NCBI RefSeq assembly: GCF_002215035.1
Contig: NZ_NKFP01000004.1
Coordinates: forward strand, 931,726-995,725
Reading direction: 5' to 3'
From: Leptolyngbya ohadii IS1
GTDB taxonomy: Bacteria > Cyanobacteriota > Cyanobacteriia > Elainellales > Elainellaceae
DNA length: 64,000 bases
Under the pieces are notes generated by a model. It searched no databases, was not told the DNA's origin, and worked only from the letters and a program-made list of their open reading frames with translations. This document shows positions 59,563-63,737 of this stretch, one piece after another; position 1 is the first letter of the stretch; each line of letters begins with the position of its first letter. A program made the position numbers and the translations under genes.

Positions 59563-60030
59563 ATGAGGTGGTTTTGCAGGTCGGGTTTCAGGGCAAGCAT
59601 TCTCGCTGTTCTGCTGCTGTTTCAGGTGGGCTGTGCATCTGAGCAATCGTCTACGCCCCTAACACGCACAATTCAAATTCAGCAAACCTGGCAGCTTCAA
59701 CCTGGAGACACGATCGCTAACTATGCGGTGGTGGCTGGCTTAGGCGATATTTCGATTCGCCTTGGGGGGAATTCGGTCTATGCCCCGTTTGATGGGGAAG
59801 TTCAGAAGAATGTGGCGGACTGTGTGCTGTTCTCCAGTGCTGATGTGCCCGCCTATCTGTTTCGTTTGTGTGGCTTGAATCAGCCGCGTGTTGGCACAAT
59901 CACTCAGGGACAGGCGATCGGCTCTGGCGAATTCGTTCACATTGCAACGCTCCGCAAACAGCCCGAAGGAACCTGGGCAATGGTGGAACCTGCACAAGAT
60001 ATCCTCGAAAAATTACTGGGTAACTCCTAG
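59563..60030 (+). CDS. Predicted lipoprotein, unknown family
   Basis: 155 residues. A basic N-terminus and hydrophobic core (FRASILAVLLLFQVGCASEQ) carry the lipobox FQVGC with Cys24, so the mature protein should be lipid-anchored. The remainder is a small beta-rich domain: TIANYAVVAGLGDISIRLGG, VYAPFDGEVQKN and VGTITQGQAIGSGEFVHIAT. The last part slightly recalls a biotinyl-lipoyl or peptidase M23-like barrel (APFDGEV, G-x-I-x-x-GQAIG), but no catalytic residues are seen. Family not recognised. It precedes rlpA in the same direction with a 548-bp gap. Confidence 0.65.
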   Translation: MRWFCRSGFRASILAVLLLFQVGCASEQSSTPLTRTIQIQQTWQLQPGDTIANYAVVAGLGDISIRLGGNSVYAPFDGEVQKNVADCVLFSSADVPAYLFRLCGLNQPRVGTITQGQAIGSGEFVHIATLRKQPEGTWAMVEPAQDILEKLLGNS

Positions 60031-60467
60031 TTCTGCTTTGAGGCGTCCGTATTGCGAGTCGCGATCGCTTAGCTTTGAGTAATAATTGTGTCCAAAAGCT
60101 TCAGGCAATAATACGGAAGTTTGCATAAGTTCAGAGAAGACAACCGTGGCTTTACCTTCCTAAAAAACGAAGTGACCGGATCGGGATCAACGATCCCCAG
60201 TTCAGCCCTGTGCTGTCCCTGCGACTCAAATGCAGGCAGTTCTGCGCTTCCAACCTCCCAACATAGCCCTCAGAAGTTAAAAGATGTGAAAAATTGTATA
60301 AAGTTTTCATGAAGTCAAACTTGCCTCAAAACTACTCAAGACTAGAACTGGCACAAGTTTGAGCTGTTTTTTGTTTATAAAGTTTGTGTAAAGATGTGGC
60401 GGTTTGGAAAGTGTCCCTGATCCCCAGAGCAAAAACTTCATGTTAGTCTGTTGCAGTTGCGTAACCA
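60031..60467. other. Upstream part of the lipoprotein-rlpA intergenic region
   Basis: A short plus-strand frame (60121-60312) has no recognisable features. AT-rich sequence near 60290-60390 (AAAGTTTTCATG, TTTTTTGTTTATAAAGTTTG) may hold the promoter for the structured leader that follows. Confidence 0.4.
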
Positions 60468-60556
60468 GGAGTGAACACGTAACGAGTATGAGTTAGCCCG
60501 GAAATGACTGACCCTTGTTAGTCCCTCTGTTTTCCGGAAACCCTGGCTCACTCTCC
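60468..60556 (+). other. Structured RNA leader before rlpA
   Basis: Three nested stems can be drawn. Outer: GAGTGA (60469-60474) with TCACTC (60548-60553). Middle: CCGGAAA (60498-60504) with TTTCCGG (60531-60537). Inner: GACTGAC (60506-60512) with GTTAGTC (60517-60523), one G-U and a CCTT loop. The outer stem ends 25 bases before the rlpA ATG. CCAGG/CCTGG offers an alternative outer pairing. It did not match a riboswitch class that I know, including the ydaO (c-di-AMP) type that precedes some cell-wall genes. Confidence 0.55.
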
Positions 60557-60578
60557 ATGTACCATTCACGATGGACGT

Positions 60579-61754
60579 ATGAACCATAAAATTTTGAGCG
60601 GTCTGACTGCCGCTACCCTGTTGGTAACCACGCTAGGACTTGTTCCCTTCAGCCAAATTACTCAACAGCCTGCGGTTGCAGACGAAACCTCAGAAGCCGA
60701 TGTTCCTACAACAGCATCGTTGTCTCAGGAGGCATCTGTTTTAACCCCGACCGACGTTCCGAATTCTGAAGCAGTTGCTCCAGAGCAGGTCGCAGTCAAA
60801 GTTGGGGAGTACCAGTCCCAGGAAACCCGTGTGGATAATGCAGCAATTGCCAGCATTTACGCGCACGAGCAGGACGGACGACAAGCGGCTACAGTCTATG
60901 TTCGCAATATCCCTGTCCTCACGTTCCTGGATTCGAGTTCGGTGGATTCGCCCGGTCAGTCAGCAGCCTCTAATCCGGCAGCTAATTCCTCTGGAGCCGA
61001 GCAATCTGGAGTCAAAGTTGCGAGTGTCCAAAGCCAGCACGAGACTTCTACAAGCTCTGGTTCCCAGAATCCTCAAATTGCCCATGCCGCTGCAAAGGCA
61101 GATGGATCGGCTGAGGTTTCAGTGAATCCCAGCGATCCGGTTTGGCGGGCAACTACGATCGCCGCACGGCTCAATCAGCTTTATCGGGATAACTTCAACG
61201 CCACTGAATTGACCGCTGCCTGGGATGGCGATCGGCAGCGCTACGAGATTCGGGCAGGCAATGAAGAACTGGTTGAAATCGGCGATAGCGCAATTTTGCC
61301 CGACACCACCAACAATCCTGCGGAAGACGTCCTCCAGGCAACGAACCGTCTCCGCCGTCAGATTAGCAACGCCCCGCCAGTGGACACCATTTCTGGAGAT
61401 CCGCGCACACGAGTTAGCCGGATTTCCTTTGGCTCAATCCAAATGGCGTTTTCCGGAATGGCATCCTGGTATGGTCCTGGCTTCAATGGCAACCGCAGTG
61501 CCAGCGGTGAAGTTTTCAACCAGGAAGCCCTGACCGCAGCCCATCCTTCCTTACCATTTGGAACGCAGGTGCGCGTCACCAACATGGATACCGGACTCTC
61601 GGTCGTGGTTCGGATTAACGATCGCGGTCCCTACTCTCACGGTCGCGTAATTGACCTTTCAGCGGGAGCTGCACGGGTCATCGGGCTGATGAGTTCAGGC
61701 GTGGCTCCGGTTAGCCTCCAGGTACTCGGCGTCGCAACCGCCTCAAATCGATAG
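60579..61754 (+). CDS. rlpA: RlpA-family septal ring lytic transglycosylase/rare lipoprotein A-like protein
   Basis: 391 residues. A signal peptide (hydrophobic core LTAATLLVTTLGLVPF) exports it. Residues about 35-280 are a Ser/Ala/Gln-rich region, with a helical domain near VWRATTIAARLNQLYRDNFN. The C-terminal 100 residues form the double-psi beta-barrel of RlpA: GMASWYGPGFNGNRSASGE, TAAHPSLPFGTQVRVTNMD and INDRGPYSHGRVIDLSAGAA, with the catalytic-type Asp in NDRGP. Pseudomonas RlpA cleaves stem-less glycan strands at the septum; no SPOR domain is seen here, so septal targeting may differ. No lipobox was recognised. A structured leader precedes the gene. Confidence 0.85.
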   Translation: MNHKILSGLTAATLLVTTLGLVPFSQITQQPAVADETSEADVPTTASLSQEASVLTPTDVPNSEAVAPEQVAVKVGEYQSQETRVDNAAIASIYAHEQDGRQAATVYVRNIPVLTFLDSSSVDSPGQSAASNPAANSSGAEQSGVKVASVQSQHETSTSSGSQNPQIAHAAAKADGSAEVSVNPSDPVWRATTIAARLNQLYRDNFNATELTAAWDGDRQRYEIRAGNEELVEIGDSAILPDTTNNPAEDVLQATNRLRRQISNAPPVDTISGDPRTRVSRISFGSIQMAFSGMASWYGPGFNGNRSASGEVFNQEALTAAHPSLPFGTQVRVTNMDTGLSVVVRINDRGPYSHGRVIDLSAGAARVIGLMSSGVAPVSLQVLGVATASNR

Positions 61755-62009: not shown

Positions 62010-62031
62010 GGGGCAGGTTTGCCCCTTTTTT
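62010..62031 (+). terminator. Rho-independent terminator downstream of rlpA
   Basis: GGGGCA-ggtt-TGCCCC followed by T6 (62026-62031). It lies 255 bp after the rlpA stop and 40 bp before the end of the convergent photolyase gene. Confidence 0.8.
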
Positions 62032-62072: not shown

Positions 62073-63737
62073 CTACACCAGCTCGTTCAAAAAACTCAAC
62101 TGAATCACGCCATCATCTTTCTTTTTACGGCTGGATTTGCGGCGTGGTTTTCTTGGGCGGGGCTGGATTTCGACGTGGGCAACAAACCAGGTGCGTAATG
62201 CCTTCGCCTCCTCCGGATCAAGCTGTTCCAGATCGATCGCCTCTGGGTACAAATCCCGTTCCGGCAAAGAAGCCCAGCCTACCTCGGACGAAAAGCGATC
62301 GCTGCCAAAAGGGACGATTGATTCTGGCAGAGTTGCCAGGTAGGGAATTAAATTATCCTGCTGAAGGAATTTCTGGCGCTGCTGCTCTAGCTGCTTGACG
62401 CGACGCTGCCTTGCCGTGCGGTAGTCCAGAATCGGGCGCGGATAATTTTTGAGCGGTGGGGGGGAACCCAGTTCAGCGGGGGAAAGGTGAGCGACTTCGG
62501 GAACCCATTGCTTAATGAACTCCCCTTTCGGGTCACAGCGATCGACCGCCACCTGCTCCGGGTTGTAAATGCGCGTCCAGGTTTTATCGACGCAGTGCGT
62601 AACCCCTGCCTGCATTGCCCACTGGTAATGATCGATCGGGCAGTCGCCATCAATTAAATGACGCATAAAGTGAAGCGCACCATAGCGCCAGTCCATGCCC
62701 AGCAAATTGCTGAGAAAGCTGGAATAGAAAGCCCGCGATCGAAAATTGAGCTGCTTCCAGCCGCCTGTTGCCAGCAGACACCGTGCCGCCGCATCCACGA
62801 TCGGAAATCCGGTTTGCCCTTCCTGCCATGCCTGGTAAAGGTCTTCGTCAAACTCCCAGCCGTCCTCGTCAAAGACCGAATAGAGCGATCGCAGTTCGAG
62901 CTGGGGCAAATAGCGAAACCGCTGGGCAAAGCCACTCCCCCACCGCAGTCGGGCAATTAACTGCTGACGGCTTCTCTGGACTTTCGGACTTTCGGACGAG
63001 CGGAGGGATTCGGCGGTCTGATAGCATTCCCGCACCGAAATCGCCCCAAATTTAATGTAGGGGCTGAGTCCCGTGGTGGCTTCTGCGCCGGGATAGGACA
63101 ACTGCCAGTAATAGCGATCGGTTTTTTCCGCCAGAAATTCCTGAAGCTGTTGCCGAGCGGCGATCGTGCCTCCGGGGGGAATGGGCTTCTGGTCTGCGGT
63201 GAGTTCCAGTTCCGCAAGGGTTGGAATCGGCTCGCTGGAAATATCTTCCGGGACATCGATGCGGGTAGGGGTGGGGATGAGTTCTTGCCGCATATCGCCG
63301 TACCAGAAATCCCGATAGTCGGGATAGGTCATCAGGTCAGCGGTTCCGGCACTAGGTTCAAACCAGCGGATTTTCATATCCGATTCTGCCAGGGCACGGT
63401 TTAGCCTTGCGTCTCGAACCCGTCCGTAAATTCGCTCATAGTCAATATACGCATAAATTCCTTCCGCCTGGGTTTCCCGCAAAAGCTGAGGTAAAACCTC
63501 GACCGGATCGCCATAGCGAAGAATGAGTTTGCCACCCCGATCGCGCAACTCCTGATCCAGCGCAGACAGGCATTCCAGCATAAACGCCACCCTCGACGGC
63601 GCGGTTTCCGGGTGATGCAGCAGAGCGCGATCGAAGATGAACACAGGAATGACTGCCCCTCGAAGTGCGGCACGCCGCAAAGGAGCATGATCGCTAATGC
63701 GAAGATCTCGACGGAACCAGACGATCGTGCGGGGCAT
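62073..63737 (-). CDS. phr: Deoxyribodipyrimidine photolyase (cryptochrome/photolyase family)
   Basis: 554-residue flavoprotein that splits UV-induced pyrimidine dimers with blue light. The N-terminal antenna domain starts IVWFRRDLRISDHAPLRRAA. The FAD-binding catalytic domain has TGLSPYIKFGAISVRE, RLRWGSGFAQRF, GFPIVDAAARCLLATGGW and RAFYSSFLSNLLGMDWRYGA, then QWAMQAGVTHC and R-I-YNPE. These are the family's FAD- and DNA-contact segments, and the tryptophans needed for electron transfer are present. A basic Arg/Lys-rich tail of about 30 residues (RPRKPRRKSSRKKKDD) is longer than usual. Length is slightly above the normal 470-500. Antenna cofactor not determinable. The partial oxygenase gene lies 26 bp upstream on the same strand. 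Confidence 0.93.
   Translation of the reverse strand: MPRTIVWFRRDLRISDHAPLRRAALRGAVIPVFIFDRALLHHPETAPSRVAFMLECLSALDQELRDRGGKLILRYGDPVEVLPQLLRETQAEGIYAYIDYERIYGRVRDARLNRALAESDMKIRWFEPSAGTADLMTYPDYRDFWYGDMRQELIPTPTRIDVPEDISSEPIPTLAELELTADQKPIPPGGTIAARQQLQEFLAEKTDRYYWQLSYPGAEATTGLSPYIKFGAISVRECYQTAESLRSSESPKVQRSRQQLIARLRWGSGFAQRFRYLPQLELRSLYSVFDEDGWEFDEDLYQAWQEGQTGFPIVDAAARCLLATGGWKQLNFRSRAFYSSFLSNLLGMDWRYGALHFMRHLIDGDCPIDHYQWAMQAGVTHCVDKTWTRIYNPEQVAVDRCDPKGEFIKQWVPEVAHLSPAELGSPPPLKNYPRPILDYRTARQRRVKQLEQQRQKFLQQDNLIPYLATLPESIVPFGSDRFSSEVGWASLPERDLYPEAIDLEQLDPEEAKALRTWFVAHVEIQPRPRKPRRKSSRKKKDDGVIQLSFLNELV

Follow-up and report, generated by a model that had tools for sequence, protein, structure and literature searches.

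A conserved control region before rlpA in Cyanobacteriia, probably made up of an extended -10 promoter and a leader RNA with a conserved 5' arm

Is the cyanobacterial gene rlpA preceded by a structured leader RNA, and if so, which part of the DNA ahead of the gene has been conserved? The question arose in Leptolyngbya ohadii IS1, where the first-pass annotation of the window (the whole stretch of 64,000 nucleotides that was analysed) had placed a leader of three nested stems at 60468-60556, directly before the start codon of rlpA. The encoded RlpA has an N-terminus that by eye resembles a signal peptide. About 250 nt after the gene, a terminator-like hairpin with a T run is found at 62010-62025, followed on the opposite strand by a photolyase-family gene (62073-63737). 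With a probability of roughly 0.6, sequence comparison leads us to a conserved rlpA control region, in which an extended -10 promoter would drive a leader with a conserved arm, and through which the gene would be regulated.

A DNA search with positions 60330-60700 matched 40 of 60 genomes, the window's own genome included, and the most widely matched part in this 60-genome search, 60375-60496, lies mostly upstream of the region noted first. An rlpA homologue was present in all 30 loci fetched from the search. From these loci of near relatives an 87-position, sequence-only model (R1) was built, which matched in 135 of 291 genomes of the Cyanobacteriia (E <= 0.01). In a phylum-wide draw 27 of 98 genomes were matched; outside the class there was one match in 58 genomes, and a weak one (E 0.008). 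We examined 119 R1 loci in two batches (100 + 19), and in 114 of them an rlpA homologue follows downstream on the same strand, with the loci L086, L089 and L102 matching RlpA only in the C-terminal domain. The R1 matches located elsewhere (L132, L133, L134, L136 and L137) are among the weakest (E 0.001 to 0.009), and those at L136 and L137 look like chance. An RlpA-like protein occurs in 109 of 116 genomes; hence, not every rlpA has a module that can be recognised in front of it. Among genomes without a good match at rlpA, 4 of 19 rlpA upstream regions reached E < 0.01, mainly in the promoter part. The protein all1861 (SjcF1) was dropped as an RlpA candidate; a table in PMC4103569 assigns it SH3 and peptidoglycan-binding domains.

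For the pairing analyses, 14 of the 114 rlpA loci were left out (no start codon, weak anchor, a leader of <50 or >260 nt, a start doubtful by eye, or an identical copy), which gave a set of 100 loci, and some of the rlpA start codons were set by rule rather than by evidence. One locus per genus, 65 in total, was used for the genus-level swap, folding, repeat, spacing and ungapped tests. Conservation is strongest mostly upstream of 60468-60556 (Table 1), and a good deal of it belongs to the promoter, which had been overlooked.

Table 1. Features of the rlpA control region in the window, in order of position.
Feature	Position	Strand	Remarks
Tandem direct repeat TAAAGTTTGTGTAAAG	60378..60393	+	TRAAGnTTnnnTRAAG type in relatives
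Conserved core, 87 nt	60413-60499		before rlpA across Cyanobacteriia
CCCTGATCCCC box	60415..60425	+	roughly -41 to -31 relative to the predicted start
Predicted extended -10, TGnTAnnnT, here TGTTAGTCT	60441..60449	+	100/100 aligned cores
Predicted transcription start, G	60456	+	deduced from T-7 at 60449; alternative A 60455
Predicted rlpA 5' leader	60456..60578	+	about 123 nt; folds better than dinucleotide shuffles
Outer stem GAGTGA/TCACTC	60469-60474/60548-60553		in sequence
Conserved 5' arm GTGAACACGTAACGAGTATGAGTTAG	60471..60496	+	consensus GYRAAnnCGnAACGAGTnYGAGTT
Putative long-range stem, 5' strand	60484..60496	+	GAG 60484-60486 and TGAGTTAG 60489-60496
Middle stem CCGGAAA/TTTCCGG	60498-60504/60531-60537		in sequence
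Apical hairpin (middle and inner stems), variable	60498..60537	+	in energy minimum
Inner stem GACTGAC/GTTAGTC, CCTT loop	60506-60512/60517-60523		in sequence
Putative long-range stem, 3' strand	60543..60555	+	CTGGCTCA 60543-60550 and CTC 60553-60555
TTCAC near start codon	60565..60569	+	may close the structure with GTGAA 60471-60475
rlpA	60579..61754	+	391 aa, DPBB-domain lytic transglycosylase-like; Pfam PF03330 DPBB_1, E 1.4e-24

The extended -10 element of sigma-70 promoters has the form TG-n-TA-nnn-T (TGnTATAAT type). Each of the corresponding letters (TG, T-12, A-11 and T-7) is invariant in the 100 aligned cores, while the free positions between them do vary in the same alignment. The positions that never vary here are those that matter most in extended -10 promoters. 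Part of this invariance reflects selection, as the 100 rows were found with R1, a model that itself stems from 30 near relatives. Judged by its letters, a class-wide extended -10 promoter before rlpA is very likely. From the element at 60441-60449 in the window, transcription is predicted to start at 60456, and the G that corresponds to this position is invariant in all 100 cores as well. A start within 60468-60556 would speak against the leader proposed there; the predicted one lies 12 nt before it. A scan that flags terminator-like sites does not report the extended -10 promoter. We found no start-site data for rlpA in the open-access literature searched. The one regulatory statement found there concerns the Synechocystis gene slr0423 (rare lipoprotein A), for which PMC3516471 describes an intragenic element that accumulates differently from the gene under iron limitation, an observation that neither supports nor refutes the predicted start.

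Two further DNA elements lie upstream. In the first, the CCCTGATCCCC box, the G, A, T and C of GAT.C are invariant in 100/100 aligned cores, and box and TG stand 17 nt apart in 62 of the 65 genera, 16 nt apart in the other 3. The second is a tandem direct repeat within the stretch of DNA that was matched in 40 of 60 genomes. Its strict pattern occurs in 26 of 65 genera, and in 20 of these its distance from GATCC equals that in the window. The repeat is possibly the activator site of an OmpR/PhoB-type response regulator, the type of protein being suggested by the form of the repeat.

Is the transcript structured? Folded between roughly the predicted start and the ATG, the leader in the window has a z of -3.3 against dinucleotide shuffles. 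The leaders of the 65 genera have a mean z of -1.6, with 40 of 65 below -1, compared with means of -0.6 for coding controls (23 of 65 below -1) and -0.37 for upstream controls (15 of 65) of the same length. The difference between leaders and controls indicates that the leader is structured. On its own, the 161 nt from 60440 to 60600 do not stand out in folding (z -1.46), being equalled by 21 of 200 shuffles. At the predicted 5' end (60456-60483), GTTGCGT and ACGTAAC might form a 7-bp hairpin; of ten leaders, those of the window and of the two relatives nearest to it have this hairpin in their predicted folds. Directly upstream of the ATG (60565-60578), TTCAC and GGA recur in many rlpA leaders, and an ordinary Shine-Dalgarno sequence was not seen by eye in this segment.

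The three stems noted first, which we assigned to particular letters in the present analysis, can all be found as complementary sequences, and their region ends 22 nt before the rlpA ATG rather than the 25 nt given earlier. Complementary letters are likewise present for the CCAGG/CCTGG pairing that had been proposed as an alternative to the outer stem (60465-60469/60542-60546). In the energy minimum of 60440-60600 the inner and middle stems are kept, but the outer stem is absent and is replaced by a pairing of GAG with CTC and of TGAGTTAG with CTGGCTCA. As judged by eye, the inner stem of a same-genus relative has one compensatory change and one broken pair, and in an alignment of ten leaders the apical parts differ in the other members of the family. 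From these letters, the two inner stems appear to hold only near the window's genus. The exact three stems are a variable part of a larger element and not its conserved feature.

What is conserved within the transcript is a 5' arm. Over 24 nt its columns have a mean identity of 88% in an alignment of 43 rows, which were picked from the 65 genera for carrying GAGT. Duplex prediction pairs this arm with sequence further downstream in the leader. When the last 75 nt of the leader were searched, 46 of the 100 loci had a partner of the arm's 3' half that ended 20-29 nt short of the ATG. We then compared the pairing of each arm with its own leader to that with leaders of other species. With 100 loci, this swap test gave z -5.7 for the segment around GAGTnYGAG; promoter and linker segments showed nothing or a slight reverse effect (z up to 1.8). 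With one locus for each of the 65 genera, two peak segments reached z -3.6 and -3.8, with 1 and 0 of 2000 permutations as good, neighbouring segments gave 4 to 12 of 2000, and control segments were null. An earlier version on 80/87 loci had the same peak at lower strength (mean rank 0.40, expected 0.5). The permutations remove shared ancestry only partly, even with one genome per genus, and the own-versus-swapped effect is modest.

Counting of ungapped pairings pointed in the same direction for a 13-mer at distances of 17-31 nt (0 of 1000 as good, three control stretches null) but failed for a 9-mer (80 of 1000). With single fixed distances, the best of 40 was 24 nt (z 3.0; 2 of 1000), followed by 9 nt with z 2.7. 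Compensatory pairs were found in divergent lineages, in which GGGTATGAG pairs with CTCATACCC (L124) and CAGTAGGG with CCCTACTG (L121 and relatives); further examples occur in L119, L129, L131 and L076. At a margin of 0.3 kcal/mol, pairing with the own partner exceeds expectation in 26 of 47 arm variant types and falls short of it in 16; at 3 kcal/mol it falls short in none and exceeds expectation in 12, of which one genus supplies three. Pairing of the arm is poor in several genera, and 111 of the 724 predicted stem pairs are G-U. A closing pair between GTGAA and TTCAC is suggestive only, with 43 to 142 of 2000 permutations as good, depending on segment length.

RNAalifold returned a negligible fold for the conserved core (-1.3 kcal/mol) and no pair for 35 aligned leaders, in an alignment whose 3' arm is visibly out of register. 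Two local hairpins within the motif were set aside: AACnCGTA/TACGnGTT was not supported, and UAAC/GUUA was weak, with 1 of 500 shuffles as high by two measures and 352 and 302 of 500 by pair and type counts. On the sequence evidence, a stem between the 5' arm and a segment shortly before the ATG is likely. Of the annotation made first, the structured RNA leader before rlpA is thus borne out by folding that exceeds the controls, by pairing that is better with own than with swapped leaders, and by the compensatory changes that it had proposed to look for before rlpA homologues; its coordinates and its outer stem were off.

Could the conserved arm act as DNA instead? The region might consist of the promoter and an operator slightly downstream of the transcription start, with the motif of 21-24 nt as a transcription-factor site whose RNA pairing is incidental. 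The edges of the motif are nearly palindromic (AAC..GTT), as might be expected of such a site, yet changes in the motif are matched by changes in its partner segment close to the ATG. The distance from the -10 element to the motif is 20-26 nt in 65/65 genera, while the spacing within the promoter is nearly fixed; this variation is easier to reconcile with RNA than with a DNA site held in phase with the promoter and, together with the G-U pairs, favours a function as RNA. The 21-nt pattern was found in 56 of 194 genomes, and outside rlpA, with one genus set aside, it occurs 9 times. Six of these 9 matches lie outside frames of at least 100 aa, against 1 of 9 for the reversed pattern, which speaks for an operator; the reversed pattern, however, gives 9 matches as well. 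A model of the 24-nt motif retrieved rlpA and otherwise chance-level matches in the window's genome and 39 relatives, and the regulon that it might have defined was rejected. Altogether, we regard an operator as unlikely.

Copies of AAnnCGnAAYGASTnYGRGTT outside rlpA were seen at L140:1893-1913 (genome G047), L143, L145, L146 and L141/L142. In L140 the copy is preceded by a TACAAT box, and about 43 nt separate it from a gene downstream that starts MNGNIRVGSLFGIPFYLNVSWFL and is by eye site-2 protease-like. A seventh pattern match, in L141, lies inside a 158-aa frame that its relative L142 does not have. In 8 genomes of one genus (f26/g48), a motif copy stands in reverse orientation directly before the start of a gene that looks trxB-like by eye (L132:429-449, also L133 and L134).

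We return to the control region composed of promoter and leader RNA. In the mechanism that we propose, a response regulator bound at the tandem repeats would activate the rlpA promoter, and the long-range hairpin would set the translation and/or the life span of the rlpA mRNA. One arm of this hairpin keeps its sequence and the other follows, which suggests a second, sequence-specific partner for the former. The 5' arm may also be recognised by an RNA-binding protein, a small RNA or a ligand, and its pairing and its recognition might be mutually exclusive; such exclusion would account for an arm that hardly varies and a partner that adapts to it. It is a distinctly doubtful further step to see here a new cyanobacterial class of regulatory RNA, in which the arm senses an envelope signal via a dedicated partner and controls RlpA. 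If true, the class would be built on a 5' arm that hardly varies and begins some 16 nt into the mRNA, and the few other genes with the 21-nt motif would be further targets. In the open-access literature we found no description of a cyanobacterial rlpA RNA motif; one may exist elsewhere.

A related reading is that the leader might be a ligand-sensing riboswitch. As a new class, its aptamer would comprise the arm and the linker, and the long-range stem would be the expression platform. Such an RNA would be in keeping with one strongly conserved strand, a variable apical region, a single target gene and a leader more structured than controls. A conserved multi-stem aptamer fold, however, was not found in the core or in the 35 leaders (aligned out of register), much of the conserved core is promoter and not RNA, and an Rfam relative is lacking. 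At gathering thresholds, Rfam reports only a tRNA elsewhere in the window. Between 60030 and 60700, with E <= 5, there is only a weak CyVA-1 match (E 0.85; 16.9 bits versus 41.4 needed), and a scan of the loci of 20 relatives gave no family with E <= 0.5 at rlpA or ahead of it. These scans yield no Rfam class that fits the leader; by eye, no known class had been matched earlier either. They leave the suggested link to the c-di-AMP-binding ydaO class unsupported, since the model, which we take to be RF00379 (ydaO/yuaA), matched neither 60030-60700 nor the loci of the 20 relatives. A riboswitch of a new class is, in our estimation, very unlikely. In a member of the same genus, a TPP riboswitch (RF00059, 68.3 bits) lies shortly downstream of rlpA (L120:1514-1612).

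Conditional termination is less probable still. In such an attenuator, the apical hairpin at 60506-60523 and the T-rich tract would end transcription; a scan does flag this hairpin as terminator-like, and a same-genus relative has a longer T run behind it. The flagging scan itself, however, gave 3 sites against 2.5 expected, terminator-like sites occur in 8 of 65 leaders where shuffles would give 4.1, and the family's other leaders do not show the hairpin, so that we consider an attenuator highly improbable. A leader peptide from the small upstream frame 60440-60496 (MLVCCSCVTRSEHVTSMS) can practically be dismissed: its end coincides with the end of conservation in the window and ATG or GTG is present in 100/100 rows, but this RTG coincides with the TG of the -10 element, the predicted transcription start falls inside the frame, and the frame is broken by one-base insertions or deletions in relatives, with no codon pattern visible by eye.

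A control region that is constant across a class, serves the gene of one peptidoglycan enzyme and has no Rfam match points to a little explored control of cell-wall remodelling that cyanobacteria would share. Its predictions are exact and concern the point at which transcription starts, the site of an activator, and a stem in which both arms can be mutated and then made to pair again. The locus also illustrates how a promoter and a leader RNA may be mistaken for one element when a single genome is read.

How does the region compare with known systems? The ydaO/yuaA riboswitch has cell-wall targets, and the rlpA leader resembles it in standing before a gene of the cell-wall hydrolase type; it differs in having no covariance-model match here (E <= 5) or in 20 relatives (E <= 0.5). 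With extended -10 sigma-70 promoters the region shares TG, T-12, A-11 and T-7, with a predicted start 7 nt further on. Unlike these, it shows by eye no usual -35 hexamer but the conserved CCCTGATCCCC box in that place, and it is followed by a conserved motif within the transcript. Finally, structured cis-regulatory 5' leaders likewise combine a conserved strand with a compensating partner and a place between transcription start and start codon, whereas in the case of rlpA only a single stem is supported across genera, and an unusually conserved promoter is attached to it.
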